11,124 nucleotides of DNA from Clostridiales bacterium (lineage in GTDB: Bacteria > Bacillota_A > Clostridia > Christensenellales > Aristaeellaceae): the NCBI GenBank assembly GCA_012514855.1, contig JAAYZL010000042.1, forward strand, positions 1 through 11,124, read 5' to 3'. The notes beneath the pieces were generated by a model. The model saw nothing but the letters and a program-made list of their open reading frames with translations. It was not told where the DNA came from and did not search any database. How positions within the stretch are numbered: position 1 is the stretch's first letter; every line of letters begins with the position of its first letter. Position numbers and translations under genes: made by a program. Positions 1 through 11,124 of the stretch are shown in pieces.

Positions 1-696
1 ATGGACCAGCGCTGCCTGAACGCCGACCCGTGGAAGAACCCGGCGCTTATCGAGGCGGGGCTGATGGTCGCGGCGATGGAGAAGGGCGCGAACATCTCGG
101 TGATGCTGCCGTACTCGGACGCGCTGAAGCTCATGAGCGACTGGTACGCGCAGCTCTGGGCGGAGAGCCTCGGGAAGAACGCGACCCTCGACGGACAGCC
201 GGTCAACGTCGGCCAGACGCCGGTCAAGGCGCTCGGCGTGACCGACCAGCACTCGCAGCTGCAGCTCTACACCGAGGGCCCGTTCGACAAGGTCATCACG
301 TTTCTGAAGGTCGAATCGTTCCGCTCTGAGACGCCGATCCCCCACGGCTGCGACGACGTCCCGACGATCGCGTTCCTGGGCGGCAGGAGCCACAACCAAC
401 TGATCGAGGCCGAGCGGCTCGGAACCGAGTACGCGCTCTACCGCGCGGGCAGGATGTGCCAGGTGATCGCGCTTCCGGCGATCGACGAGGAGACGGTCGG
501 CCAGCTTCTGTACTTCTTCGAGCTCGTGACCGCCTACGCCGGCGCGCTTCTGAACATCGACGCGTTCAACCAGCCGGGCGTCGAGGAGTCGAAGCTCGCG
601 GCCTACGCCGTCATGGGCTACGAGAGCGACAGGCACGCGAAAAAGCGCGAGGAGATGCAAAACCGCCCCGCGCCGAGACCGGAGTATAGATTCTGA
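1..696 (+). CDS. pgi: Glucose-6-phosphate isomerase, C-terminal part (5' end outside window)
   Basis: Interconverts glucose-6-phosphate and fructose-6-phosphate in the cytoplasm (glycolysis and gluconeogenesis). The visible 231 residues match the C-terminal half of bacterial Pgi. The TDQHSQ block (residues 81-86) carries the family's catalytic histidine. GGRSHNQ lies at about 127-133. The second Pgi signature spans 181-198 (GALLNIDAFNQPGVEESK) and ends in the conserved active-site lysine. The family is normally about 450 residues or longer, so some 200 or more N-terminal residues, including the sugar-phosphate binding SIS region and the true start, lie left of the window. The ATG at base 1 is most likely an internal methionine that happens to fall at the edge. 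The tail after residue 210 is charged and less conserved. The stop codon forms the base of a hairpin shared with the convergent glycosyltransferase gene. Confidence 0.96.
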   Translation: MDQRCLNADPWKNPALIEAGLMVAAMEKGANISVMLPYSDALKLMSDWYAQLWAESLGKNATLDGQPVNVGQTPVKALGVTDQHSQLQLYTEGPFDKVITFLKVESFRSETPIPHGCDDVPTIAFLGGRSHNQLIEAERLGTEYALYRAGRMCQVIALPAIDEETVGQLLYFFELVTAYAGALLNIDAFNQPGVEESKLAAYAVMGYESDRHAKKREEMQNRPAPRPEYRF

Positions 697-732
697 TTGA
701 AACGGAGCCGGCGACGGCTCCGTTTCAATCAG
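693..732. terminator. Stop-to-stop hairpin between convergent genes
   Basis: A perfect 18-bp stem (693-710 with 715-732) is capped by a GCGA tetraloop of the stable GNRA type. The pgi stop TGA (694-696) sits in the left arm and the stop of the convergent glycosyltransferase gene (complement of 729-731) in the right arm, so the two genes share one palindrome. Neither side is followed by a clear U-tract. It may therefore act as a 3'-end stabiliser or a non-canonical bidirectional terminator rather than a textbook intrinsic terminator. Confidence 0.75.
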
Positions 733-2243
733 GCGGCCTCCAGACGGTAGATCTTGAGCGAGTACCGCTCCAGCGCATAGGCGCCCAAGTCGGAATAGGC
801 GATCCCGCTTCCGTCGAAGGCCTCGGCCGCGGACGGCTTCGCGGAAGGGAGGCGCTCCACAAAATACACCGGCTGTCCGTCCAGAAGCCAATTGCGGATC
901 TCCGCGGTCTCGTAGACGTGGCGCATATCCGAATAGACGCTTTGGAGCGGCTTCTGATTCCAAAGATAGCAGTCTCTTCCCGTCAATTCCGGGATGGTGC
1001 CGCTCATGTGAGTATCGCTCGCCACGAAGCGCGCGTCCTCCTCGATCGTCTCAAGGCGGGCCTCCAGCTTTTCGAACGCGTTTTTCATGCGCAATTCGGC
1101 GGCGATAAAACTTCTGACGTTCAAAAGCGCCGCGCACAACAGCACGGCCGCCGCCGCAAGCCGCAGATATCGGGCGCGGCCTTCGAGCCTGCCGAGCAGG
1201 ACCGCGTAGCCGAGCCAGAGGCTGCCGAGCGCCGGAACCATATAGCGGGAAACAAACACGGGTCGAAAGATAAGCGACGCCGCGATGCCGAGCAGCACGG
1301 TACCGCCCCAATTGACCGCGCCGTTCACGCAAAACAGCAGGGCGTCCGTCTCATCCCGATCCCTGCGCCGGATGCTCCTGCGGATCGCGCCGACCACCAG
1401 CGCCAGATAGGACAGGACGAGGAACAGCGCGATCGACCACGCAATGATCCTTCCGCCGCCGGATCGAAAGGGATACTCCAAAATCGACGCCAACCCGCGC
1501 TTCGTGATCGGGGAAATCCAGTAGCTCTCACCGACCATCCTCAGCTGCCGAACGGACACCAGCAGCCACGGAAGATAGCCGATCACCGTCGCCCCCGCGC
1601 ACAACAGCCACCCCTTGAGCCGCGCCCGATCGTAAAAAAGGCATCGGATCAGCACAAACAGATAGGTAAAGGCGACCGTCGCGCAGGCGAAGTGATGCGT
1701 ATAGGCCGCGGCCAGGCTGAACAGCGTGAAAAGGCACCAATTCCTGAAGCCGCCGCTTCGCAGAACCTCGTGCGACCAGATATAGCTGGCCGTCACAAAC
1801 AGCAGCGCCCAGCTGTACATGCGGATTTCGACGCCGTAGCTGAGCATCTTCGGCATGGCGGCGGCGCACAGCGCAAACAGCGCCGCGGTCAGATTGCCCC
1901 ATGTCCTGCGAACCCTGGTCGCCGCGAGCAGCATCAGAAGCAGCTGCGGAATCGCCGAGACGCATTTTGCGACCACCGTGACGGAGAGTCCGCCGGCCAG
2001 CGCGCGCGCCGCGTCCACGAAGAACTTGAGGATAAAGTAATAGAGCGGCGGATGGACGTCCGTGGCTGTCCTGCGGATGATCTCCGCGTATGGGAGCCTG
2101 ATCATCCCGAGGGAAAACGCCTCGTCAAACCAGATGCTGCCGCTGTTTGCCGAGATGAACATCGCCAAGAGCGCGGCGATTGCCAGGCCCCAGCAGACCG
2201 CCGCGGCAATGCGGTCCATTCCCGAGCGCAATTTCGTCTCCAT
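729..2243 (-). CDS. GT-C fold membrane glycosyltransferase (PMT/ArnT-like)
   Basis: This 504-residue polytopic membrane protein probably transfers a sugar from a polyprenyl-phosphate donor to a cell-surface acceptor outside the membrane. After a first membrane segment (about 12-32) comes WFDEAFSL (38-45), the Asp-Glu motif in the first extracytoplasmic loop typical of GT-C enzymes, and then DVHPPLYY (62-69), a hallmark of the PMT_2/ArnT-like group. About ten hydrophobic segments follow, then a soluble C-terminal region from about residue 395. The reading frame stays open upstream to 2585, but the extra residues are out-of-frame remains of a broken GT2 gene. I chose the ATG at 2243 because an AGGAAGG ribosome site lies 9 nt upstream. 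That site overlaps the stop codon of the GT2 remnant, suggesting the two were translationally coupled. Donor and acceptor sugars are unknown. Confidence 0.85.
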   Translation of the reverse strand: METKLRSGMDRIAAAVCWGLAIAALLAMFISANSGSIWFDEAFSLGMIRLPYAEIIRRTATDVHPPLYYFILKFFVDAARALAGGLSVTVVAKCVSAIPQLLLMLLAATRVRRTWGNLTAALFALCAAAMPKMLSYGVEIRMYSWALLFVTASYIWSHEVLRSGGFRNWCLFTLFSLAAAYTHHFACATVAFTYLFVLIRCLFYDRARLKGWLLCAGATVIGYLPWLLVSVRQLRMVGESYWISPITKRGLASILEYPFRSGGGRIIAWSIALFLVLSYLALVVGAIRRSIRRRDRDETDALLFCVNGAVNWGGTVLLGIAASLIFRPVFVSRYMVPALGSLWLGYAVLLGRLEGRARYLRLAAAAVLLCAALLNVRSFIAAELRMKNAFEKLEARLETIEEDARFVASDTHMSGTIPELTGRDCYLWNQKPLQSVYSDMRHVYETAEIRNWLLDGQPVYFVERLPSAKPSAAEAFDGSGIAYSDLGAYALERYSLKIYRLEAA

Positions 2244-2257
2244 CGTTCTCCGCCTTC

Positions 2258-2486
2258 CTATGCCGATTCTTTCGGGAGAGGGATAATGCAGTGAACCCGC
2301 GGATCGGCGGCGTGCGGGCCGCGCGGAATTTCGAGCGTGCCGTCCTTGGAGCCGTCGTCGACGAATACGTACTCGAATTCGAGTTCGGGCATCGCCCCGC
2401 GTCCGCTCGGCTTCCGCATAAAAGAGGACCGGCGTTTCCCGCTCATTGTAGGCCGGAACGACCAGGGTCAACAGCGGCTTTTCCAT
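2258..2486 (-). pseudogene. Remnant of family 2 glycosyltransferase (polyprenyl-phosphate glycosyltransferase type)
   Basis: The ATG at 2486 has an AGGAG ribosome site (2495-2499) 8 nt upstream and begins MEKPLLTLVVPAYNE, the N-terminal signature of GT2 enzymes such as dolichol-phosphate mannosyltransferase-like proteins. After about 30 codons the frame is lost. The continuation, in another frame, reads ELEFEYVFVDDGSKDGT (the GT2 nucleotide-binding VDDGS motif) and then ADPRVHCI, before stopping at TAG 2258-2260. The family is about 300 residues, so roughly three quarters is missing in addition to the frameshift. These enzymes typically make the lipid-linked sugar used by a GT-C partner encoded next door. 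Here that partner follows 14 nt downstream and is intact. A single frameshift could be an assembly error, but the size of the deletion could not be. Confidence 0.82.
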
Positions 2487-2580
2487 TGTTCTCGCTCCTG
2501 AATGCGCTTGCCGCGGCGAAGCCGGTGATGGGAGTTTGCGCGGCGGAATCCCCTTCTCCGCACCCTCGCGCATGCGGAAT

Positions 2581-2609
2581 ATCATAACACAAATGTCGTT
2601 TTTTGTCTA
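2581..2609 (-). promoter_or_regulatory. SigA-type promoter of the glycosyltransferase operon
   Basis: On the minus strand TAGACA (-35, at 2604-2609) and TATGAT (-10, at 2581-2586) are separated by exactly 17 nt, each one base from consensus. Transcription would start near 2573, about 85 nt before the ATG of the GT2 remnant. The promoter therefore still looks intact although the first gene of the operon has decayed. Confidence 0.75.
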
Positions 2610-2667
2610 TATGCCGCCGCGCCTTCCGCGAAAATTAGCCCACTTTGTCGGAACCGGCCCGAATGAC

Positions 2668-2695
2668 AAAAGCTCCCCCCATCGGCGATGGGGGG
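2668..2695 (-). terminator. Intrinsic terminator of ohr
   Basis: A 9-bp GC-rich stem (2675-2683 with 2687-2695, triloop) is followed on the minus strand by AGCTTTTGTC. It starts about 20 nt after the ohr stop codon. The right arm lies in a run of ten G (2690-2699), a place where sequencing length errors are likely but outside any gene. Confidence 0.75.
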
Positions 2696-2717
2696 GGGGA
2701 AGGGGAACCGGGGCCGT

Positions 2718-3140
2718 CTACTCGACCGTCGCGGTCACGGTGACCTCTATGTTGCCGCGCGTGGCGTTCGAGTACGGACAGGTAAGGTGCGCCTCGGCGG
2801 CGACTTCGTCGGCGACCTTCTGATCGACCGCGCGGAACACCGCCTCGATCGCGGCCGTGAGCTGAAACTTGCCCTGATCGTTTCTGCCGATGCCGACCGT
2901 CGCGCGGACGTCCGGCGCGGAAATATCGAGCCTCTTTACGCGAATCACGTGCTGCAGCGCGCTTCCGAAGCAGGCGGCGTATCCGGCCGCGAACAGCTGC
3001 TCGGGATTGACGCCGCTCTCCTTCTTGCCGCCCATCTCCGCGGGCAGCGCCATCTCAAACTGGAGCGGCGAATTCTCGACCGTCACTTTGCCGTCGCGCC
3101 CGCCGGTCGCAATCGCCTTCGTCGCATACATGACCTTCAT
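2718..3140 (-). CDS. ohr: Organic hydroperoxide resistance protein Ohr (OsmC/Ohr family)
   Basis: A thiol peroxidase that reduces organic and fatty-acid hydroperoxides in the cytoplasm, usually with lipoylated proteins as electron donor. At 140 residues it has the standard Ohr length. The N-terminal ATGGRDG (11-17) holds the conserved arginine. NPEQLFAAGYAACF (45-58) holds the conserved glutamate and the peroxidatic cysteine C57, and CPYSNATRGN (121-130) the resolving cysteine C121. This pattern fits the Ohr subgroup better than OsmC. The start at 3140 has an AGGAG site 8 nt upstream. The gene is monocistronic, with its own promoter (3173-3201) and terminator (2668-2695). Ohr genes are often paired with the MarR-type repressor OhrR, but none is encoded here, so control must come from elsewhere if it exists. 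Confidence 0.95.
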   Translation of the reverse strand: MKVMYATKAIATGGRDGKVTVENSPLQFEMALPAEMGGKKESGVNPEQLFAAGYAACFGSALQHVIRVKRLDISAPDVRATVGIGRNDQGKFQLTAAIEAVFRAVDQKVADEVAAEAHLTCPYSNATRGNIEVTVTATVE

Positions 3141-3172
3141 GGGATCAACTCCTCTCTGCGTCCTGGAATGTC

Positions 3173-3201
3173 ATAGTACTGGAAATCAGGAATGCGTCCA
3201 A
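3173..3201 (-). promoter_or_regulatory. SigA-type promoter of ohr
   Basis: On the minus strand TTGGAC (-35, at 3196-3201) and TACTAT (-10, at 3173-3178) are separated by 17 nt. The predicted start near 3166 leaves a leader of about 25 nt with a good ribosome site. The spacer and part of the -35 box lie inside the outer arm of the structured repeat at 3184-3398. Confidence 0.7.
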
Positions 3202-3398
3202 AGCGGCGAGAGATTTTTCCGCCCCGCCAGGAGCCGGAGCGAGGCGTAGCCGGGAACCTGCGTTGAGCGGAGAGCGACACGCGAAGGTTTGATTTTCGAA
3301 GAAAATCAAAGTCGCTCTGCGACCGATCCGTTCAAATCGAAGATTTGAGCGGATCGCCGTGGCGGGAAAAGATCCGGCGCGACGACGCATTCATGGTT
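3184..3398 (+). repeat. Structured intergenic element, copy 1
   Basis: Fills most of the gap between ohr and the solute-binding protein gene. Predicted pairings on the plus strand: outer helix 3184-3198 with 3384-3398 (13 Watson-Crick pairs, one T-G, one mismatch, with perfect core GAATGCGTC/GACGCATTC); helix 3214-3223 with 3361-3370 (one T-G); 3271-3278 with 3311-3318 (8 bp) enclosing hairpin 3288-3297/3301-3310 (10 bp, GAA loop); and hairpin 3324-3338/3342-3356 (15 positions including one T-G, GAA loop). GTCGCTCTGCGAC (3311-3323) can instead fold on itself, competing with the 8-bp helix. It shares block order and short motifs (GATTTTTC, GGAGCC, GTAGC, GAGCGACA, GTCGC-n3-GCGAC, GGAAAAG or GGGAAAAG) with copy 2 at 5522-5763, while the hairpin sequences differ. 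No credible gene lies inside. Confidence 0.75.
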
Positions 3399-3475
3399 GG
3401 AATTAGTATTCCTTCCCTGCCTTTTATTTGGCCCGGATCGGGCGGGTTGAAACGCACATGGAAAAACTTCACATC

Positions 3476-3509
3476 AAAAAGGGAGGAGAGCGAATGAAGC
3501 TCCCCTCCC
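3476..3509 (-). terminator. Intrinsic terminator of the sugar ABC importer operon
   Basis: An 11-bp stem (3481-3491 with 3499-3509, one wobble pair, 7-nt loop) is followed on the minus strand by TTTTT (3476-3480). It begins 14 nt after the stop codon of the solute-binding protein gene, so this is a clear operon end. Confidence 0.88.
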
Positions 3510-3523
3510 CCTTCGCCGCAAGA

Positions 3524-4492
3524 TCAGCCGCCGAGGGCATCCTCAGCGGTGACGATCTGGACGCCCGTGTTGATGAACAGCGCGCCGATGGTCTCGTCGT
3601 ACGGGGCCTCGACCGCCTCGCCGTTGATCAGCTTGACCAGCGTCTCTACGCTCTGGTAGCCCATGTTGTAGAAGCTCTGGCCGACGGCGATGTCGAGCAC
3701 GCCCGCCTCGAAGAACGCCGGGGTCGTCTCCGGGAAGATGTCGATGGTGATGATCTTGTGGTTCGGGTCCGCGAGCTTCCACGCGTTGGTGTTGGGCATC
3801 GCGGTCACGTCGACGGTGTAGGGCCAGCCGCCGGACATGAACCACGCGTCGAAGTCCCCGCCGTTGGCGCGGCTGTACGCCTCGCAGCCCTCGATCGCCT
3901 CGTCGACGTTGTCGTTGCAGGCGAAGGTGTAGACGCTGTGGAGCTTCGAGCCCGCGATCGCGTCCTCGAAGCCGCGGATGCGCGCCTCGATGTCGTCCGC
4001 GCCGGGGATGCCGGCCAGGATCGCCACGCGGACCTCCTCGAGGTCGCTGTCCTTGTAGAGGTCGATCAGCAGCTCGCCGCAGGTGAAGCCGGCCTTGTAG
4101 TTCTCGGTGCCGATGTAATACTCGCGGTTCGAGTTCGGCGAGTCGACGTCGTAGCAGACGACCTGGATGCCCGCGTCGATCGCGGCGTTGATCGAGGCCA
4201 TCAGCGCGTCTCCGGTCGTGCAGGAGATCGCGATGCCGTCGACGTCGCCGCGGGAGATCAGGTTCAGCATGATCTCGTTCTGCAGCTCGGCCTCGGCGCG
4301 CAGCGGCGTCTGCCACTCCACCGACACGCCGAGGTCCTTGCCGGCGTCGTTCATGCCGACTTCGGCGTCGAGGAACACGACGTTGCCCAGCTGCTGGCCG
4401 ATCATGGCGATCACGATCTCGTCCTCGGCAAGCGCGGAGCCCATCGCAAGAACCAGCATTGCGACGATGAGGAGACTGAGTAGCTTCTTCAT
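3524..4492 (-). CDS. Sugar ABC transporter substrate-binding protein (periplasmic-binding protein type 4, RbsB-like)
   Basis: Captures the sugar outside the membrane and delivers it to the permease encoded just upstream. It has 322 residues. A signal peptide (1-22: MKK, a hydrophobic core, then GSALA before EDE) fits signal peptidase I cleavage. No cysteine lies near that site, so it is not a lipoprotein, which is unusual for a binding protein in a monoderm Firmicute. The mature part shows the RbsB-type type I fold: VIAMIG opening strand, DGIAIS (85-90), the hinge-side segment VVCYDVDSPNSNR (111-123) with aspartate and arginine positions that contact sugar in this family, then YIGTENYKAG (126-135). 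The start at 4492 has AGGGAGG 8 nt upstream and lies 46 nt after the permease gene. It is the last gene of the operon. The ligand cannot be told from sequence. Confidence 0.92.
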   Translation of the reverse strand: MKKLLSLLIVAMLVLAMGSALAEDEIVIAMIGQQLGNVVFLDAEVGMNDAGKDLGVSVEWQTPLRAEAELQNEIMLNLISRGDVDGIAISCTTGDALMASINAAIDAGIQVVCYDVDSPNSNREYYIGTENYKAGFTCGELLIDLYKDSDLEEVRVAILAGIPGADDIEARIRGFEDAIAGSKLHSVYTFACNDNVDEAIEGCEAYSRANGGDFDAWFMSGGWPYTVDVTAMPNTNAWKLADPNHKIITIDIFPETTPAFFEAGVLDIAVGQSFYNMGYQSVETLVKLINGEAVEAPYDETIGALFINTGVQIVTAEDALGG

Positions 4493-4538
4493 GGAAAAAT
4501 CCTCCCTTTATTTGATCCGGCATGGCGCCGGTCCTTCC

Positions 4539-5504
4539 CTACGATCGGGACTTGCGGATCTGGTCGATCGAGACGGCGACGATGATGACGGTTCCGATGA
4601 TCAGCGTCTGGAAGTACGGGTCGACGCTCAGGAGCACCAGCATGTTCCGAAGCACGCCGATGATGGCCGCGCCGATGACGGTGCCGACGACGGTTCCCTC
4701 GCCGCCGGAGAGCGTCGCGCCGCCGATGACGACCGACGCGATCGCGTCCATCTCAAAGCCGTTGCCGGCGGTCGGCTGCGAGACGCCGAGCTTCGAGGCG
4801 TTCATGATGCCGGCAAAGCCCGCCGTGACGCCGCTCAAGATAAAGCACAGTATCTTCAGCCGGCTCGTGTTGATGCCGGAGATGCGCGTGGCCTCCTCGT
4901 TGCCGCCCATCGCGAAGATGCGCCGCCCGGTCGTCGACTTGTTGCGGAACACCGCGAACAGCGCGATGATGATGACCATCGCGTACACCGCCATCGGAAT
5001 CTCCAGAAGATAGCTCTGCCCCAGCCACAGAAAATCCTTGCCGAGGCCGGAGATCGGATAGCCGCGCGTCAGTATGTAGCAGATGCCGCGGAAGATCATC
5101 TGCGTGCCGAGCGTCGCGATGTAGGGCGGCAGCTTGCAGTAGACCACGAGCAGGCCGTTGGTGCAGCCGCAGGCCGCGCCGACCAGAAAGCCGAGCAGCA
5201 TGCCCCAGATCGTCGGCACGCCGCCCTTGATCAAAAGCGCCGACACGACGCCGGCCAGCCCGTAGATCGAGCCGATCGATATGTCTATGCCGCCGATCAT
5301 GATCACCATCGACACGCCGATGCCCGCGATGGCGTACGCCGAAAACGCGCGCGCGACGTTCATCAGGTTCGTCATGTCGCCGAACGCCGGTTTGATCGCG
5401 TACAGCGCCCCGCACATCACCACAAAGATCGCAAAAATCGTCAGCGTCGAGGCGTTTGCCCCCCGGAACAGCCTGCGCCACGTGGAACCGGCCCTGGTCT
5501 GCAT
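4539..5504 (-). CDS. Sugar ABC transporter permease (RbsC-like, BPD_transp_2)
   Basis: The membrane channel of the importer, probably working as a homodimer because no second permease gene is present in the operon. The 321 residues contain about eight to ten hydrophobic segments after a basic cytoplasmic N-terminus. Family landmarks are all intact: GGIDISIG (71-78), PPYIATLGT (127-134), the cytoplasmic coupling loop AMGGNEEATRISGI (198-211) that contacts the ATPase, and GGATLSGGEGTVVGT (261-275). The start at 5504 is supported by AGGAGGGGG about 6 nt upstream. The gene is separated from the ATPase gene by about 250 nt entirely occupied by a structured element, an unusually long gap inside such an operon, but only 46 nt from the binding-protein gene downstream. 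Translation of permease and binding protein is therefore probably linked more closely with each other than with the ATPase. Confidence 0.93.
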   Translation of the reverse strand: MQTRAGSTWRRLFRGANASTLTIFAIFVVMCGALYAIKPAFGDMTNLMNVARAFSAYAIAGIGVSMVIMIGGIDISIGSIYGLAGVVSALLIKGGVPTIWGMLLGFLVGAACGCTNGLLVVYCKLPPYIATLGTQMIFRGICYILTRGYPISGLGKDFLWLGQSYLLEIPMAVYAMVIIIALFAVFRNKSTTGRRIFAMGGNEEATRISGINTSRLKILCFILSGVTAGFAGIMNASKLGVSQPTAGNGFEMDAIASVVIGGATLSGGEGTVVGTVIGAAIIGVLRNMLVLLSVDPYFQTLIIGTVIIVAVSIDQIRKSRS

Positions 5505-5521
5505 GTCGTTTCCCCCTCCTG

Positions 5522-5763
5522 CCTAGGTAAGCGATGATTTAATGAGGTGGTGGATTGCCGAGGCGATTTTTCGTCCCCACGCGGAGCCAGCAGGGAGCCG
5601 TAGCAGCGCTACGGCGACCGGATGAGCGACAGCGGCGTGCGATTCAAATTCATTTGAATCGCACGGTCGCGCAGCGACTTGGTTTCCCAAAGGGAAACCA
5701 ACCTTGCGGGGGCGGAAAAGCGACCGGCAGGCCCGCCGCCGAATAAGTCAGCGATTGCCTAGG
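5522..5763 (+). repeat. Structured intergenic element, copy 2, filling the ATPase-permease gap
   Basis: Predicted pairings on the plus strand: outer helix 5522-5543 with 5742-5763 (22 positions, 19 paired including two T-G); middle helix 5546-5560 with 5725-5740 (four T-G, one bulge, one A-C); inner helix 5567-5578 with 5708-5719 (12 bp, two T-G); hairpin 5597-5604/5608-5615 (perfect 8 bp); 5626-5630 with 5666-5670 enclosing the perfect 13-bp hairpin 5637-5649/5652-5664; and hairpin 5679-5688/5692-5701 (perfect 10 bp, AAA loop). GTCGCGCAGCGAC (5666-5678) can fold on itself as in copy 1. The outermost arm includes the ATPase stop codon (5759-5761). Nearly all non-Watson-Crick pairs are T on the left arm opposite G on the right, so they pair in a plus-strand RNA but not in the minus-strand operon mRNA. 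Same architecture as 3184-3398. Confidence 0.78.
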
Positions 5764-7276
5764 AAATGGCCATCTTCATCAGGATCTCCTGATTCGCGTC
5801 CTTCCGGTCGACCTCTCCCATGACCCGCCCCTCGTGCATCACGTAGATCCTGTCGGACATGCCGAGAATCTCGGGCAGTTCCGACGAGATCATCGCAATC
5901 GCGACGCCCTGCCTGGCCATCTCGGACATCAGCGCGTGTATCTCCTTTTTCGCGCCGACGTCGATGCCGCGCGTCGGCTCGTCCAGGATCAGAATCGAGG
6001 GGTTCGTCGCCATCCACTTCGCGATGACGACCTTCTGCTGGTTGCCGCCGGAGAGGTTGAGCACCTTCTGCTCGATCGACGGCGTCTTGACGCGGAGCTT
6101 GCCGACGTATTCGTCGACGAGCGCCTTCTCCGCCTTCGGGTTGATCATCCACCGCCTGGCGACCTTCGAGAGCGCCGCCAGGGATACGTTCCTGCGAACC
6201 GTCATCTTCAGAACCAGCGCCTGCTCCTTGCGGTCCTCCGGCACAAAGCCCATGCCGCAGCGCCGCGCGTCGACGGTGTTTCGGATGTCGACCCTTTTCC
6301 CGCGGACGAATATCTCGCCGGTCTCCCTGCGGTCGATGCCGAACACCGCGCGCATGACCTCGCTGCGCCCGGCGCCGACGAGGCCCGCGAAGCCCACGAT
6401 TTCGCCCGCGCGCACGTTGAAGCCGATGTCCTTCAGAAAGTTCTTCGTCGAGAGGCCCTTCACCTCGAGAACGACCTCCCCGATCGGCGCCTCGTCCTTG
6501 ACGAACAGGTTCTTCACGTCGCGCCCGACCATCGCCGCGATGACCTGCTGCTCGCCGACCTCGGAGGTGATCATCTTCTCCATCATCTCGCCGTCGCGCA
6601 TGACCGCGATCTCGTCGGAAATCTCGAACACCTCGTTCAGCCGGTGCGTGATGAACACGATCGCCACGCCCTCGCTGCGGAGCCTGCGGATGATGCCCAT
6701 CAGCATCGCCGTCTCGGTCTCGGTCAGGGACGAGGTCGGCTCGTCCATGATGATCAACTCCGCGTTGAACGACAGCGCCTTCGCGACCTCGACCATCTGC
6801 TTCTGCGCGGTCGACAGGAATTTGACCTTCGTGCGCGTGTCGAGCGAAAGCCCGACGCGCTGAAGCAGTTCCGCCGCGCGCTCGTGCTGGCGCCTGTGGT
6901 CGACGAGCCCGCCCCGCCGAAGCTCCCGCCCGACGAAGATGTTCTCGGCGATGTCGACGTTGTTCAGGACGCTCAGTTCCTGATAGATGATGCTGATGCC
7001 CATGCTCCGGGACGCCAGCGGGCCGTCGATCTGAACCGGCTTTCCCCTTAAATAAATCTCGCCCGCGTCGCGCCGGTAGATGCCGGAGAGTATCTTCATC
7101 AGCGTCGATTTCCCCGCGCCGTTCTCGCCGACCAGCGCCAGCACCTTGCCCGGATACACGGACAGGCTCACGTCGTTCAGCGCGCGCACGCCCGGAAAGC
7201 TCTTCGAAATGCCCCGCATCACGAGCAGAGGCTCCTGTCCCTGGCTCAACTGGCTCACCCCTTCATGGCCGTCCAT
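5759..7276 (-). CDS. Sugar ABC transporter ATP-binding protein, two ATPase domains (RbsA/MglA type)
   Basis: Powers the sugar importer from the cytoplasmic side. The 505 residues hold two ABC domains, the usual RbsA/MglA/XylG length. Domain 1 has Walker A GENGAGKS (50-57), signature LSTAQKQ (154-160) and Walker B LIIMDEP (174-180). Domain 2 has the degenerate P-loop GLVGAGRS (298-305) normal for this family, an intact signature LSGGNQQ (408-414) and Walker B ILILDEP (428-434). It is the first gene of the operon, read from the promoter at 7449-7477. The start is uncertain. The frame opens with a GTG at 7309 (516 residues); I prefer the ATG at 7276, but neither has a clear ribosome site. A GTG about 29 codons into the longest frame, with AGGAG 9 nt upstream, is a third option that would begin right at the conserved domain. 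The stop codon lies in the outer arm of the structured element downstream. Confidence 0.94.
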   Translation of the reverse strand: MDGHEGVSQLSQGQEPLLVMRGISKSFPGVRALNDVSLSVYPGKVLALVGENGAGKSTLMKILSGIYRRDAGEIYLRGKPVQIDGPLASRSMGISIIYQELSVLNNVDIAENIFVGRELRRGGLVDHRRQHERAAELLQRVGLSLDTRTKVKFLSTAQKQMVEVAKALSFNAELIIMDEPTSSLTETETAMLMGIIRRLRSEGVAIVFITHRLNEVFEISDEIAVMRDGEMMEKMITSEVGEQQVIAAMVGRDVKNLFVKDEAPIGEVVLEVKGLSTKNFLKDIGFNVRAGEIVGFAGLVGAGRSEVMRAVFGIDRRETGEIFVRGKRVDIRNTVDARRCGMGFVPEDRKEQALVLKMTVRRNVSLAALSKVARRWMINPKAEKALVDEYVGKLRVKTPSIEQKVLNLSGGNQQKVVIAKWMATNPSILILDEPTRGIDVGAKKEIHALMSEMARQGVAIAMISSELPEILGMSDRIYVMHEGRVMGEVDRKDANQEILMKMAIS

Positions 7277-7327
7277 ATGTTGAGGCAATGCCGCATAAAG
7301 AGGGCGCACGCCGGCGAGATGAATTTT

Positions 7328-7435
7328 CGTCGGATCGGGTTTGCAAAAGCCGCAGGCGCAGCAGGGCTACGCCAGGAATTTTCCAGGCCCGAGACGGCGG
7401 AAATGCAGCCGCCCGCGCCCGCACGATTTGTGCGG
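7328..7435 (-). other. Hairpin-rich 5' leader of the sugar importer operon
   Basis: The gap between the importer ATPase and spo0A is about 400 nt, and this part is transcribed as the importer leader (about 165 nt from the promoter to the ATG at 7276). Stems seen: 7419-7424/7430-7435 (6 bp); 7396-7400/7409-7413 (5 bp); a closing helix 7328-7331 plus 7335-7339 with 7388-7392 plus 7393-7396 (9 bp around a 3-nt bulge, sharing base 7396 with the previous stem); and within it 7355-7358/7370-7373 continuing to 7360-7362/7366-7368 (7 bp, one mismatch) and 7371-7374/7385-7388 continuing through a GGAA/TTCC stem. Some stems compete with each other. I do not recognise a known riboswitch class. The rest of the gap, about 7478-7684, holds the spo0A upstream region, where I find no convincing promoter. 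Confidence 0.45.
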
Positions 7436-7448
7436 TACTGCCTTGAAT

Positions 7449-7477
7449 ATTGTACTATTTTTTACGGCAATTGTCAA
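7449..7477 (-). promoter_or_regulatory. Strong SigA-type promoter of the sugar importer operon
   Basis: On the minus strand a perfect -35 box TTGACA (7472-7477) and TACAAT (-10, at 7449-7454) are separated by exactly 17 nt. This is the best promoter in the window. Transcription would start near 7441 and give a leader of about 165 nt. I found no obvious catabolite-repression (cre) site or LacI-type operator palindrome overlapping it. Confidence 0.88.
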
Positions 7478-7684
7478 GGTTACCGTGTTTTTTGGGCGTG
7501 AAGAAGGAGGCCGCGGCGGAGGGAGATGCGGCCAATCCGCCCCGGACAAACCCGGTATTCCCCTTGAATTTGAAATTTCCCCGTACACGGCCGCTGTTTT
7601 TTTGTCTTATTCGGTCATATTCTCCGGTTTTAGGCATACATAGTAAGGCAGATAGGGAATTTGTCCGAAAGGAACTGAAGAACC

Positions 7685-8461
7685 ATGGAGAAGATTCGCG
7701 TGGTGCTGGCGGACGACAACATGAGCGTTCTCCGCCTTCTGACAAACTTCTTTGCGGAAACGCCGGACATCGAGCTCGTAAAATCGGTCTCCGACGGCGC
7801 AAAGGTCGCCGATGCGGTGCGCGCGCACCGGCCCGACGTGCTCGTCACAGACATCATCATGCCCAGGCGCGACGGTTTCCGGATCCTCGAGGAACTGAAC
7901 GAACTGTCGGAGGAGGAGCGGCCGAAGGTCATCGTGCTGACCGGCCTCTCGCGCGACGACTTCATCCTGCGCGCGGTGAAGCTCGGCGCAAGCTACTACA
8001 TGGTCAAGCCCTTCGACATGCGGCTGCTCGCGAACCGCATCCGCGAGGTCGTGTCCTCGTTCGAGGACAGCGCGATCGCGGAGCTTCCGACGCCGCGCGA
8101 ACCCGCGTATCCGGACGTCGACGAGCAGGTCACAAACCTGTTTTTGACCATCGGCATCCCGGCGCACATCAAGGGCTATCACTACCTGCGCGAGGCCGTC
8201 CGGATGGTAATCTCCTGTCCGGACGTCATCAACCGCATCACGAAGGAGCTCTACCCCGGCATCGCGCGCAAGTTCGACACCACCGCAAGCAAGGTCGAGC
8301 GCGCAATGCGGCACGCGATCGACGTCGCCTGGTCGCGCGGAAGGCTCGATTCCGTCAACAGCATGTACGGCTACAAGGTGCTCTCCCCCGACGACAAGCC
8401 GACCAATGGGGAGTTCATCGCGCTGATCGCGGACAAGGTGGGGGTCAGGAAGAGCGCGTAA
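7685..8461 (+). CDS. spo0A: Sporulation transcription factor Spo0A
   Basis: The phosphorylation-activated master regulator of entry into sporulation; it binds 0A boxes and RNA polymerase. The 258 residues match the family length. Receiver domain (1-125): acidic pocket D10-D11, phosphoacceptor D56 in VTDIIMP, switch T86 and K108 in MVKPFD. A short linker (about 126-145) leads to the Spo0A-specific effector domain. GIPAHIKGYHYLREA (157-171) and the recognition-helix region TTASKVERAMRHAIDVAWSRG (199-219) are near-identical to the B. subtilis protein as I remember it. The NGEFIALIADK ending is also typical. The start is supported by AAGGA about 11 nt upstream and by the family's MEKIRV-type N-terminus. 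It stands alone here, divergent from a sugar importer. The usual clostridial neighbour spoIVB is not adjacent. Confidence 0.97.
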   Translation: MEKIRVVLADDNMSVLRLLTNFFAETPDIELVKSVSDGAKVADAVRAHRPDVLVTDIIMPRRDGFRILEELNELSEEERPKVIVLTGLSRDDFILRAVKLGASYYMVKPFDMRLLANRIREVVSSFEDSAIAELPTPREPAYPDVDEQVTNLFLTIGIPAHIKGYHYLREAVRMVISCPDVINRITKELYPGIARKFDTTASKVERAMRHAIDVAWSRGRLDSVNSMYGYKVLSPDDKPTNGEFIALIADKVGVRKSA

Positions 8462-8464
8462 AAG

Positions 8465-8526
8465 CCCTGTGCCGCAGGGATTTTCGCGGCTTCCCGGCAG
8501 AGTCCGGAGGAAGTCCCTCCGCTGCC
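8465..8526 (+). other. Hairpins directly after spo0A
   Basis: Two stems follow the spo0A stop. One is 8465-8469/8475-8479 (5 bp) followed by ATTTT. The other is 8496-8500/8522-8526 continuing, after a 4-nt bulge, into 8505-8510/8516-8521 (11 bp in total), with a T-run (8540-8544) some 15 nt further on. They could be weak terminators or stabilise the 3' end; the strong terminator lies further downstream. Confidence 0.4.
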
Positions 8527-8558
8527 AGACCTATGAATGTTTTTCGCCGGACCGACCA

Positions 8559-8610
8559 ACGCCTTTCCTCTATTGCCTCCGGCGGGGTGTAAAGGAAAGG
8601 CGTGTTTTTT
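8559..8610 (+). terminator. Intrinsic terminator of spo0A
   Basis: ACGCCTTTCC (8559-8568) pairs perfectly with GGAAAGGCGT (8594-8603) across a 25-nt loop and is followed by GTTTTTT (8604-8610). It lies about 100 nt beyond the spo0A stop, with no other plus-strand gene between them. Confidence 0.75.
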
Positions 8611-8659
8611 ATGAAAATGAACCGGATGATCGCGCTGTTCCGGATGGTTGCCCGCCGAC

Positions 8660-8705
8660 AAAAAACAAAACAGCGCCCTCCGACCGACGCGGCCGGAAGG
8701 CGCTG
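8660..8705 (-). terminator. Intrinsic terminator of the permease-SHOCT gene
   Basis: A 12-bp stem (8671-8682 with 8694-8705, one wobble) is followed on the minus strand by TTTTGTTTTTT (8660-8670). It lies 14 nt after the stop codon at 8719. Confidence 0.88.
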
Positions 8706-8718
8706 TGCGTTCGGCGCA

Positions 8719-9957
8719 CTAAAGCCCCGAGAGCAGCTCTTTTTTGCGATCCTCGAACTCCTCCTTCGAGAGCGCTCCCTCCTTGAACAGGTCGTACAGG
8801 CGGCCGATCTCGGCGTAGATCCCAGACTCGCGGTCCGGCGCGGACGGCGCGGACGGCGCGGCCGGCGCGGCCGGCGCTGTCGGGGCGGCCGGCGCTGTCG
8901 GGGCGGCCGGCGCTGTCTGCGCGACCGGCGCGGAATGGGGATATGGCTGCGGTTCCCCCGCCACCGTCGACGGACCCTGCGGGAGGCGCATGGGGATGCA
9001 GAAGAGGGCGTTGACGATGGCGAACAGCGAAATGATCGCGCCTGTGAACGTAGATTGGATGTAGGGGTTGACGCCCGCCAGGGTGAGCATATTGTTCCAC
9101 ATCGTCATCGACAGCGCGGCGATTATCACGCTGCCCAGCCCGAAGGCTGCCTCGCCCTTTCGGTGGGCCAGATTGGGAATCGCCACGCCGGCGCCCAGGA
9201 GGATGGCCAGCAGCGTAAACTCACTCCCCTGAAAGGCGATCGCCATGCCTGAGCCCAGCCTGCCGGTCATGAGGATGCCCGCCACCGACGCGAGCACCCC
9301 CGAGAGGAAGCAGGCCCAGAAGCGCTGGCCGCCGGTGCGCGCATCGCGCTCGCCGACCTCGCTGGCGTGGAAGAGGTACCTGCCGGATTTGGTCACGCTG
9401 AAGAGCACGAACGGCAGAGCGCACAGCACCATGCACAGCAGAAACGGCATGAGCCCCGCGCGCGCAAGCATGGCGATGAAGTTCACGCCGCCGCTCAAAT
9501 TGAGGGGCTTCCCGTCGGAGACCAGCATGGCGATGCCCCGCAGGAAATACAGCGAGCCCGCGGTGATGGCAAAGGTGATCAGCATCGTCCTTCGGCGAAA
9601 CAGCGCCGCGAACAGGCCGTTGAGGGAACCCACGGCGATGCCGACCATAAGCGCGCAGAACACGGCCGCCCCTTCGCCGGCGCCGTTGTTCACCATCGCG
9701 CCGATGATCACGGACACCAGCGCGCCGACGCCGGCCTGCGACACATCCAGACAGCCCGTGGCGAAGGTCAGCGCCATGCCGAAGGCCATCAGGCAGGGCC
9801 CCGAAAACTGAATCAGCACGTTTCGGAAGTTCATCGCCGTCATGAAGTTGCGTCCGCCCAGGGCCACGCCGAGCAGCGCCGCCGTCAGCAGAAAACCAAG
9901 GCAGCAGAAGAACCAAATCATCTTGAGGGGGGCCGCCCTTCCCGTTCTCTCACCCAT
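8719..9957 (-). CDS. RbsC-like ABC permease with Ala/Pro linker and C-terminal SHOCT-like domain
   Basis: The 412 residues form three parts. Residues 1-328 resemble a sugar ABC permease (BPD_transp_2) with about eight to ten hydrophobic segments. Landmarks are altered: the usual GGxDLSVG reads GCLDVSQAG (68-76), and the usual GGATLxGGxG reads LGAGVAIPNLAHRKGEAAFG (254-273). Residues 343-374 are a low-complexity Ala/Pro linker (TAPAAP units). Residues 379-412 (IYAEIGRLYDLFKEGALSKEEFEDRKKELL core) fit the SHOCT pattern, a short C-terminal helical-pair domain usually found on membrane or stress proteins, not on permeases. No ATPase or binding-protein gene adjoins it, so any transport role needs partners from elsewhere. 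The start at 9957 has GGAGAGGA-type purines upstream. The 274 nt upstream to the next gene hold that gene's terminator and AT-richer sequence, but no promoter I would call. Confidence 0.82.
   Translation of the reverse strand: MGERTGRAAPLKMIWFFCCLGFLLTAALLGVALGGRNFMTAMNFRNVLIQFSGPCLMAFGMALTFATGCLDVSQAGVGALVSVIIGAMVNNGAGEGAAVFCALMVGIAVGSLNGLFAALFRRRTMLITFAITAGSLYFLRGIAMLVSDGKPLNLSGGVNFIAMLARAGLMPFLLCMVLCALPFVLFSVTKSGRYLFHASEVGERDARTGGQRFWACFLSGVLASVAGILMTGRLGSGMAIAFQGSEFTLLAILLGAGVAIPNLAHRKGEAAFGLGSVIIAALSMTMWNNMLTLAGVNPYIQSTFTGAIISLFAIVNALFCIPMRLPQGPSTVAGEPQPYPHSAPVAQTAPAAPTAPAAPTAPAAPAAPSAPSAPDRESGIYAEIGRLYDLFKEGALSKEEFEDRKKELLSGL
8837..8935 (-). repeat. 9-bp minisatellite coding the Ala/Pro linker
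   Basis: Eleven consecutive 9-bp units, variants of GGCGCGGAC on the plus strand, run in frame. The middle part also repeats at 18 bp (GGCGCTGTC followed by GGGGCGGCC, twice). Each unit adds three residues of the type Ala-Pro-x, so gain or loss of units changes linker length without breaking the frame. Confidence 0.85.
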
Positions 9958-10186
9958 CGCAATCCTCTCCTTCTTCTCCTCAGACCATTCGCGTGGCGCG
10001 CCCCGTGACAGCGGCCGTATCCATTTTACGCCATATTTGTTAATTTCCTCATATCATCGCGGGTTCCTGTCGCGCTTTTAAATATTTCTTTCCCCCCGGC
10101 GGCGCTTTGGCCGTCCGGCGGGCGCTCGCGGGAACTGCTCGCTCGTCTCGCATGAAGTCCCTCAGGTAAAACCCTTCGCCGAGCCG

Positions 10187-10226
10187 AAAAGAAATCGGGC
10201 TCGCGCCGCAAATGCGGAAGCCCGAT
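10187..10226 (-). terminator. Intrinsic terminator of the DUF5655-DUF3795 pair
   Basis: An 8-bp outer stem (10194-10201 with 10219-10226) and an inner stem CCGC/GCGG (10206-10209 with 10214-10217) are followed on the minus strand by TTTCTTTTC. It starts 6 nt after the DUF3795 stop codon. Confidence 0.85.
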
Positions 10227-10231
10227 CCCCT

Positions 10232-10660
10232 CTATGGGTTAACTCCCTTCCCGACCCTCTTGTAATGCGGGTTTTGCGCCTCGCAATTGGGGCACTTCGG
10301 GCGGTGGACGCACAGCAGCGCCCCGCATTCCGAACAACTCCAGGTTTCCCCCGCCTCCGACAAAAACCGATCCGGCCCCTTTTCGCCGATCTGCCGGAAA
10401 TTTTCCATCAGGCTCTCGCCGTAATTCGTCGCATACCTCTTTTCGAGCGCCTTCAGGCGCCTGCACGGGAATTTTGAGCAAGCGCTGCAAAACCTCTTTG
10501 AATCCCCGCCCTTCTCCGGGCAGCGCACAATGGAGCATGTCGTGCAGAGAGTGGGTTTTTCGCCCTCCGCGGTGCAGCCCGCGCACCTGTTCTTCCGCCT
10601 CTGAAAGCCCGAGCACAGGTCGCAGATCAACCCGCACGGCGCGACGATCGAAACCGGCAT
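10232..10660 (-). CDS. Cysteine-rich DUF3795-type zinc-binding protein
   Basis: A small cytoplasmic protein of 142 residues with 16 cysteines. The N-terminal APCGLICDLC (7-16), then RCAGC (25-29), CTTCSIVRC (39-47) and FCSACSKFPCRRL (57-69) match the DUF3795 pattern, whose function is unknown. A C-terminal zinc-ribbon-like module follows (CSEC at 109-112, CPNC at 123-126, with a further cysteine at 117). Metal binding is inferred from cysteine spacing. I chose the ATG at 10660 because AAAGGAG lies exactly 8 nt upstream and the MPxSxxAPCG opening suits the family. The same frame is open further upstream, with an ATG at 10699 preceded by GGAGGG at 5 nt, so a version 13 residues longer is possible. 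It lies 60 nt downstream of the DUF5655 gene with no promoter seen between, so the two are probably cotranscribed and end at the terminator 10187-10226. Confidence 0.8.
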   Translation of the reverse strand: MPVSIVAPCGLICDLCSGFQRRKNRCAGCTAEGEKPTLCTTCSIVRCPEKGGDSKRFCSACSKFPCRRLKALEKRYATNYGESLMENFRQIGEKGPDRFLSEAGETWSCSECGALLCVHRPKCPNCEAQNPHYKRVGKGVNP

Positions 10661-10668
10661 GCAATCAT

Positions 10669-10675
10669 CTCCTTT
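10669..10675 (-). promoter_or_regulatory. Ribosome binding site that decides the DUF3795 start
   Basis: AAAGGAG on the minus strand, 8 nt before the ATG at 10660. It favours this start over the in-frame upstream starts at 10699 and 10717. Confidence 0.7.
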
Positions 10676-10720
10676 GACAGGCAAGCGCCCGCCGGTCATG
10701 CTATCCCTCCGAAGCAAAGC

Positions 10721-11095
10721 TCACTTCGCCATCGAAAAGTGAAACGCGGCGTCCAGCCACCCCATGAGCTCGGCGTCCAGATCCTCCTCGCGCGCGACCG
10801 GCACATGGTGCGTCCAGCGGTTGGGGTACGGCTCCACCGCCTGAACGATGCGCGGCGAATCCAGCCGATACGGGACGCCGAACGAGACGAGCATATAGAC
10901 CTCCGGGGCGCCCTTCATGCGGCGGAGCGGCAGCGAGACCATCGCGAACAGATGCCTGTTGCGGAAGGAAATCTGGGTCTTGTCGACCTTCACCCGCATG
11001 ACCGGGTATTTCTCGACGAGCCTTTCCCGGAGCGCCGCGTAGACCGAGCGCATCGGGGGCATTCTGTCGAAGAACAGAGCTTCGTCCATGTTCAT
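10721..11095 (-). CDS. DUF5655-type conserved protein
   Basis: A soluble protein of 124 residues with no signal or membrane segment. VDKTQISFRNRHLFAMVSLP (37-56) and the later EPYPNRWTHHVPV (88-100) match the DUF5655 pattern as I recall it (KTQxSF, then a region ending in RWTHH). The function is unknown. The conserved basic and histidine residues could suggest ligand or nucleic-acid contact, but nothing here proves it. The ATG at 11095 overlaps a TGA in another frame (ATGA), which suggests translational coupling to a gene beyond the window's right edge; the ribosome site is only a weak purine stretch (GGGAAGCGG). A second ATG two codons later is also possible. It is followed closely by the DUF3795 gene. 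Confidence 0.75.
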   Translation of the reverse strand: MNMDEALFFDRMPPMRSVYAALRERLVEKYPVMRVKVDKTQISFRNRHLFAMVSLPLRRMKGAPEVYMLVSFGVPYRLDSPRIVQAVEPYPNRWTHHVPVAREEDLDAELMGWLDAAFHFSMAK

Positions 11096-11124
11096 CTGTC
11101 CGCTTCCCGATCCATTTCTTTGTC
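11092..11124 (-). CDS. Possible C-terminal end of an upstream gene (partial)
   Basis: On the minus strand the last 33 bases read open as DKEMDREADR and end in a TGA sharing bases with the DUF5655 start (ATGA overlap). Such 4-nt overlaps are common between cotranscribed genes, and the charged tail is plausible for a protein end. Ten codons are too few to identify anything, and it may be chance. Confidence 0.25.
   Translation of the reverse strand, partial: DKEMDREADR

Follow-up and report, generated by a model that had tools for sequence, protein, structure and literature searches.

Bacterial miniature inverted-repeat transposable elements (MITEs) with folding transcripts, among them RUP, nemis, bcr1, ERIC/YPAL and EFAR, are intergenic sequences of 70–300 bp that combine inverted ends, a strong hairpin and many copies (PMC3733652, in part). 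Insertion sequences (ISs) of the IS5 type leave a duplication with the motif YTAR (PMC10359306, in part), and repetitive extragenic palindromes (REPs) and the bacterial interspersed mosaic elements (BIMEs) built from them, which are associated with REP-associated tyrosine transposases (RAYTs), are short, high-copy palindromes that serve as targets for other insertions (PMC3733652, in part). DNA hairpins can also be maintained by template switching during replication, known from ribosomal RNA (rRNA) and microRNA genes; its expected marks are compensatory changes of several bases and inverted loops, a combination that is very rare in rRNA (PMC8794818, in part). Here we analyze an 11,124-nucleotide stretch of a Clostridiales bacterium of the family Aristaeellaceae (contig JAAYZL010000042.1, positions 1 to 11,124; hereafter the window), which carries three hairpin-forming elements, e1, e2 and e3 (Table 1).

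These elements are mobile, nested and hairpin-forming, and of the MITE kind. They share the length, inverted ends, intergenic position, strong hairpin and copy number of the folding MITEs but differ in that a single conserved fold is combined with several end families that can replace one another, in heavy compensatory change and in a second, nested hairpin unit; the five named families were set apart by description, with sequence compared via Rfam only. We interpret e1, e2 and e3 as non-autonomous mobile elements, in which long rods are selected for their fold and an inserted triple-hairpin module is maintained by copying between its arms, and assign this reading a probability of roughly 65%. 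No description of such elements was found among the titles and abstract openings listed in searches of the open-licence literature.

Rod elements and their mobility

A first-pass annotation had described two copies of one structured element, with motifs in a fixed order and paired hairpins and outer arms. Both elements exist as described, and their folds lie far beyond those of shuffled sequences (3170–3412, −111.5 kcal/mol, z −6.9; 5515–5768, −139.3 kcal/mol, z −9.8; 0 of 200 shuffles as good in either case). A third rod, e3, of the e2 kind but without the module, was overlooked (−89.9 kcal/mol on the + strand, −77.3 kcal/mol on the − strand). The outer arms pair despite different sequences, as claimed, yet they do not belong to one family: e1 and e2 share the rod fold and have different end families. 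A transposon had been discounted on the ground that MITEs keep their end sequence; this reasoning fails because of the two end families, and the e2 type has inverted ends, target duplications and places found without the element.

Comparison with related genomes documents these places. In G148, the e3 place is empty (TGTTAAATATTG, with a single TTAA), and the e2 place, in the gap between the permease and ATPase genes, is occupied by 131 other bases, to which e2 has no blastn match. Those 131 bases (L377, 248–378) contain repeated GTCGGCG-type segments and are perhaps another hairpin element. G002 also lacks an element at the e2 place, the end of its ATPase gene reading TTTAGGAAATGG where the window reads CTAG, e2, CTAGGAAATGG; in this comparison the right flank aligns and the left side does not. 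Conversely, G422 carries an e2 copy that is 97% identical, in a different place and again with CTAG on both sides, and G148 carries near-full-length e2 copies at 88–90% identity together with several e1-type copies. Among 39 scored rods (one row, L203, was left out), the 4-bp flanks were identical in 20 and differed by at most one base in 33, against a mean of 8.5 and a maximum of 15 identical flanks in 2000 shuffles; comparisons of 2-, 3-, 5- and 6-bp flanks of the rods gave no excess. The left flank was TTAA, TTAG, CTAA or CTAG in 26 of the 39, with TCAG, TTTA, TAAG and CAAG as variants. The e2/e3 type thus shows the length of 70–300 bp, the terminal inverted repeats (TIRs) of ~15–30 bp, the target duplication and the empty site by which MITEs are recognized. 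The e1 type has short, imperfect TIRs, and its copies have TA at both ends (in e1 at 3177–3178 and 3407–3408), which is compatible with either a duplication or part of the end sequence. We propose that a transposase supplied from elsewhere would recognize the inverted ends and insert e2-type rods at TTAA/CTAG-like sites; it may be IS5-like, as the 4-bp duplication is mostly YTAR. Rod ends mostly begin with GG, which we presume to resemble IS5 ends.

The e2 query gave one match in eight genomes (L081 in G005); L081 in turn matched 13 of 60 family genomes (G060 and G032 on ~20 bases only), with at least 14 places in one genome. At E 0.01, e2 matched 74 and e1 37 of 308 family genomes, with two candidates scored per genome and many matches of 20–60 bases only, and rod DNA matched 8 of 396 genomes of the order (G393 on 26 bases only). 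The relatives that were folded mostly share one long rod shape with regularly spaced internal loops; in a set of 14, L182 is an exception. Conserved structure with compensatory changes, proposed by the first-pass annotation from two copies, was borne out on larger families against shuffled and slid controls. In alignment A3 (35 e2/e3-like copies), compensatory changes occur in 40 of 58 predicted pairs and 95.6% of cells are paired (82.4% shuffled, ≤51.6% slid); in A6 (16 e1-type copies), they occur in 23 of 43 pairs and 94.3% of cells are paired (80.3% shuffled, ≤45.2% slid), with the measure of further pair types equalled by 30 of 500 shuffles. Inside each end family the ends are largely conserved in sequence, with several variants in the e2 family; between subfamilies they vary while complementarity is kept (e.g. 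GGAAGCACTGATTAA, GGAAATACCGCGCAA, GGCAACACCGCACAA, GTAAACGATGATTTA). The rod core at L181 (1020–1182, G034) is bounded by a perfect terminal repeat of 28 bp that is entirely unlike the others and begins GGGCCTGTTCGAAAAAGATC.

The rods are strand-asymmetric. The + strand folds better in 35 of 35 A3 rows and 15 of 16 A6 rows (50 of 51 in all; mean differences −24.7 and −18.7 kcal/mol). A pure DNA palindrome should contain G.U and A.C mismatches equally; over the union of both strands' folds, counted across related copies, G.U outnumbers A.C by 231 to 44 in A3 and 60 to 12 in A6. At A3 columns 90–106, G.U positions are kept in all 35 rows, and internal loops are conserved in both alignments. With the copies being related, the G.U excess supports selection on the + strand and does not prove it. 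In the proposed mechanism, the ~160-bp interior would fold, better on the + strand, into a long rod whose internal loops are fixed and whose stems drift while their pairing is kept by selection on that strand's fold.

The triple-hairpin module

The right arms of e1 and e2 are interrupted by a second unit, a module of ~75 bp with the consensus AAGGTT-A-AAGTC-B-GACCG-C-GCC, in which A, B and C are hairpins and C mostly ends in TCAAATCRAAGATTTGA. It lies forward in e1 and reverse-complemented in e2, and these opposite orientations argue for independent insertion into the two rods. They also mean that the comparison of the two main hairpins in the first-pass annotation, which found them paired and unrelated in sequence, set hairpin A against hairpin C in the wrong register; the pairing stands. 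Seven fetched e1-type rods of G148 and three e2-type rods (L380–L382) lack the module, whereas L172, L173, L385 (G148) and the G422 copy carry it. Of 84 intervals with both rod ends, 55 measure 153–165 bp, 9 measure 228–240 bp and 5 measure 316–330 bp, as expected, by length alone, for none, one and two modules.

Modules occur in the right arm (L149) and left arm (L098) of rods, outside rods and, within rods, inside hairpin C of another module (L322, L319, L329), for which L149 provides the uninterrupted counterpart (CTCGG^TCGAATC). No target duplication was apparent by eye at module insertions. An 18-base module pattern was found in 9 of 120 genomes and its reversed control in none, though in G044 and G045 several of the sites fall in other hairpin arrays, and the module model R1 found it in 4 of 297 genomes under strict filters. 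A strict scan for three hairpins (stems ≥7) gave 12 chains in 412 kb against none in one shuffled set; it missed the module copies of the window because hairpin B there has 5 pairs. Multi-hairpin arrays with CAAATCGNAGATTTG at L230, L239 and L244 (G044) and at L228 and L237 (G045) are related to the module and not identical with it, and L156 (1350–1560, G249) has module-like hairpins next to repeated CCTTCCCCTTGAGGGGAAGG palindromes.

The proposed switch, in which GTCGC would pair with either of two GCGAC partners, is unsupported. It joins units of separate origin, since GTCGC-n3-GCGAC forms the module's hairpin B and GAGCGACA is part of the rod, and the seven module-free rods of G148 are of the same e1 type. 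GTCGC is kept in the module-bearing copies of this rod type (e1, e2, G422, L172, L173, L385), but these copies go back to no more than two lineages of insertion and so give no independent evidence for a switch.

The module stems follow a different pattern from those of the rods. We compared 30 copies (26 of 46 candidates, the two from the window, L172 and L173; those left out were chance, duplicate, interrupted, truncated or, like L156, misframed). Arms A and B contain 499 Watson-Crick, 4 GT and 1 AC of 504 layers, under a segmentation picked to maximize pairing and with innermost unpaired layers left out, and comprise 16 (A) and 13 (B) different left arms. In alignment A5, double changes occur in 18 of 26 pairs and 99.0% of cells are paired (82.8% shuffled). 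Both strands are equally stable (+ better in 14 of 30, mean difference 0.0). Eight distinct copies in G211 have identical A arms and a loop of either AAA (5) or TTT (3), with nothing between. The symmetry of A and B and the inverted A loops point to arm-to-arm copying in DNA by template switching. As in the hairpins of rRNA and microRNA genes, perfect stems accompany multi-base compensatory change and loop inversion (PMC8794818, in part), here in a mobile hairpin unit. During replication, one arm of hairpin A or B would thus be rewritten from the other.

Could the rods, too, be kept paired by template switching alone, so that rods and modules both reflect nothing but DNA palindrome dynamics, without selection on an RNA or on the fold of one strand? 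The near-perfect, strand-symmetric module arms and their inverted A loops fit this explanation, and such a mechanism has been reported for hairpins in RNA genes (PMC8794818, in part). The rods do not fit it: they fold better on the + strand almost without exception and keep their G.U positions and internal loops, and such kept mismatches should have been removed by arm copying. We therefore regard it as unlikely, and prefer selected rods that carry arm-copied modules.

A further alternative holds that the module is not independently mobile and was moved among rods by recombination or gene conversion of repeats. Neither a target duplication nor a transposase of its own was seen for the module, the Y1 transposase family PF01797 giving no match in three of the eight genomes examined, and the e2-type module occupies one same place of the rod in G148, G422 and the window, so that the composite of rod and module probably spread there as a whole. 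Homologous exchange does not, however, predict modules at varied rod positions and in either orientation, nor modules within other modules or away from rods, which makes this account highly improbable. Beyond the preferred reading, and with considerable doubt, we suggest that the module may be a mobile DNA hairpin cassette of a new class, one that enters hairpin arms without target duplication, probably via single-stranded DNA, and whose A and B arms are continually rewritten from each other, leaving their sequence free to drift under perfect pairing; the carrier rod would form a second layer with its own selected + strand fold, perhaps for mobilization.

Transposase search and counter-evidence

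Several observations weigh against mobile elements with selected rods and arm-copied modules. An autonomous partner was not found in the genomes and loci searched, nor a transposase or complete IS with rod ends: DDE_Tnp_1 (PF01609), the one Pfam family used to look for an IS5-type enzyme, had no match in four of six draft genomes (G044, G005, G270, G148; matches in G009 and G211), and no autonomous element was found in 400 kb of the 3.39 Mb of G066. Across the interval-survey loci, the two pairs of ends listed at a spacing of 500–3500 bp brought no autonomous element to light, one (L162) lacking a matching duplication and the other joining e2 and e3 in the window. Three contig ends in G044 (L279, L284, L290) carry a repeat end that shares the rod TIR, continues into a different interior and has, by eye, outward promoter-like sequence; it is possibly the end of an autonomous element, whose interior the assembly lacks. 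At e1, a clear target duplication is absent and only the flanking TA is seen, and the subfamilies have different end sequences. The G.U excess ignores relatedness and amounts, on pairs shared by both strands' folds, to 55 to 23 in A3 and 12 to 6 in A6. The module copies had been filtered for six or more pairs in the A stem, with GT allowed. Hairpin C shows a conserved G.G (17 cells), 14 AC against 3 GT, and GAA or AAA loops in 26 of 30 copies with inversion in none; these features take it beyond arm copying alone.

Two candidates were rejected. L314, considered as a transposase fragment, is another gene. An origin of the module from REP/RAYT systems was likewise rejected, as no consistent Y1 transposase accompanies it: PF01797 matched five of eight genomes, two of them weakly, and none of G044, G029 and G148, and no link between these matches and the module was seen. 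The module resembles REPs as a high-copy palindromic unit into which others insert; at ~75 bp, with three hairpins, an AAGG start and a GCC end, it differs from REP palindromes of 20–40 bp, and neither a GTAG nor a CGTC foot was seen in it.

Genomic setting and wider meaning

The − strand of the window encodes a sugar-type ATP-binding cassette (ABC) operon with ATPase (PF00005), permease (PF02653) and binding protein (PF13407), followed by an OsmC-like gene (PF02566); Spo0A lies upstream on the + strand. The window Spo0A is 97.7% identical to that of G148 and 87% identical to those of L001 (uncultured Clostridia bacterium) and L006 (Candidatus Pullichristensenella avicola), and the ATPase is 93.6% identical to that of G148. 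At the elements, only short and overlapping open reading frames (ORFs) are listed. A scan gave one candidate promoter (0.8 expected) and five candidate terminators (3.3 expected). A promoter-like site lies at 7477–7449 on the − strand, with e3 between it and the ATPase gene, so that e3 probably lies in the operon leader. In line with the first-pass annotation, which could not name a family, no known RNA family was found: Rfam 15 gave no match above gathering scores in the window, and seven weak matches up to E 10 over 3100–5800, all below them.

That the elements are cis-acting regulatory RNAs of the operon (an attenuator or riboswitch) has in its favor the strong fold, the covariation and the position of all three beside genes of this one operon, but is scarcely tenable, because all three are antisense, so that the operon mRNA carries the less stable strand, because the e2 and e3 places lack the element in G148 despite the closely similar ATPase, and because rods elsewhere lie in both orientations to neighboring ORFs (++ 12, −− 7, +− 5, −+ 4; 28 of 32 classified, with crude ORF calling that picked antisense ORFs in the window). 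Position and orientation by gene class are not conserved, as they would be in a riboswitch or attenuator. With mobile elements as the preferred reading, effects on neighboring genes would be a by-product.

Table 1. Features of elements e1, e2 and e3, in window coordinates.
Feature	Position	Strand	Basis or remark
e1, rod-type element, sister end family, 228 bp including module	3179..3406	+	boundaries from end comparison
e1 left internal-loop motif CCAAAGCGGCGAGAG	3198..3212	+	conserved in A6 (16 rows), with several invariant columns
e1 apical hairpin GGCGTAG/CTGCGTT, flanked by GA...GA internal loop	3243..3264	+	read from sequence; homologous hairpin in relatives
Triple-hairpin module in e1 right arm, forward	3284..3358	+	module comparison
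e1 right motif AAAAGATCCGGCGCGACGA	3367..3385	+	conserved in A6
e2 left target-site duplication CTAG	5523..5526		flank comparison
e2, rod-type MITE-like element, 232 bp including module	5527..5758	+	fold, inverted ends, duplication, relatives
Triple-hairpin module in e2 right arm, reverse orientation	5634..5705	−	comparison with uninterrupted e2-type rods L380, L381, L382
e2 right target-site duplication CTAG	5759..5762		stop codon of the ATPase ORF (− strand) lies in its first three bases
e3 left target-site duplication TTGA	7280..7283		flank comparison
e3, rod-type element, 159 bp, without module	7284..7442	+	fold, empty place in G148; orientation by eye from ends
e3 right target-site duplication TTGA	7443..7446		flank comparison

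Other features of the window lie apart from the elements. At 2258–2585 (− strand) is a coding stretch which, from the motif YVFVDDGSKDGT, we take to be glycosyltransferase-like; it seems split across two frames, a possible frameshift, and stands beside a DUF6056-like ORF with a Pfam match under the cut-off. Between convergent ORFs, at 693–732, an inverted repeat pairs perfectly over 18 bp around a loop of 4 bases; it is terminator-like without a T run. Tandem repeats of 9 bases (8818–8943) encode a segment rich in Ala and Pro; the ORF that contains them is membrane-protein-like, and its SHOCT match falls below the cut-off.

Compensatory change is usually taken to prove that an RNA is functional. 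The two units described here lie in one place and bear opposite signatures: the rods are strand-favored and keep their wobble pairs, whereas the modules are strand-symmetric and near-perfect, with inverted loops. This contrast offers a ready comparison for telling arm copying in DNA from selection on RNA, and a caution for covariation screens, which may pick up mobile hairpins. The rods and modules are multi-copy elements, without a name in the literature searched, from a group of mostly uncultured bacteria.

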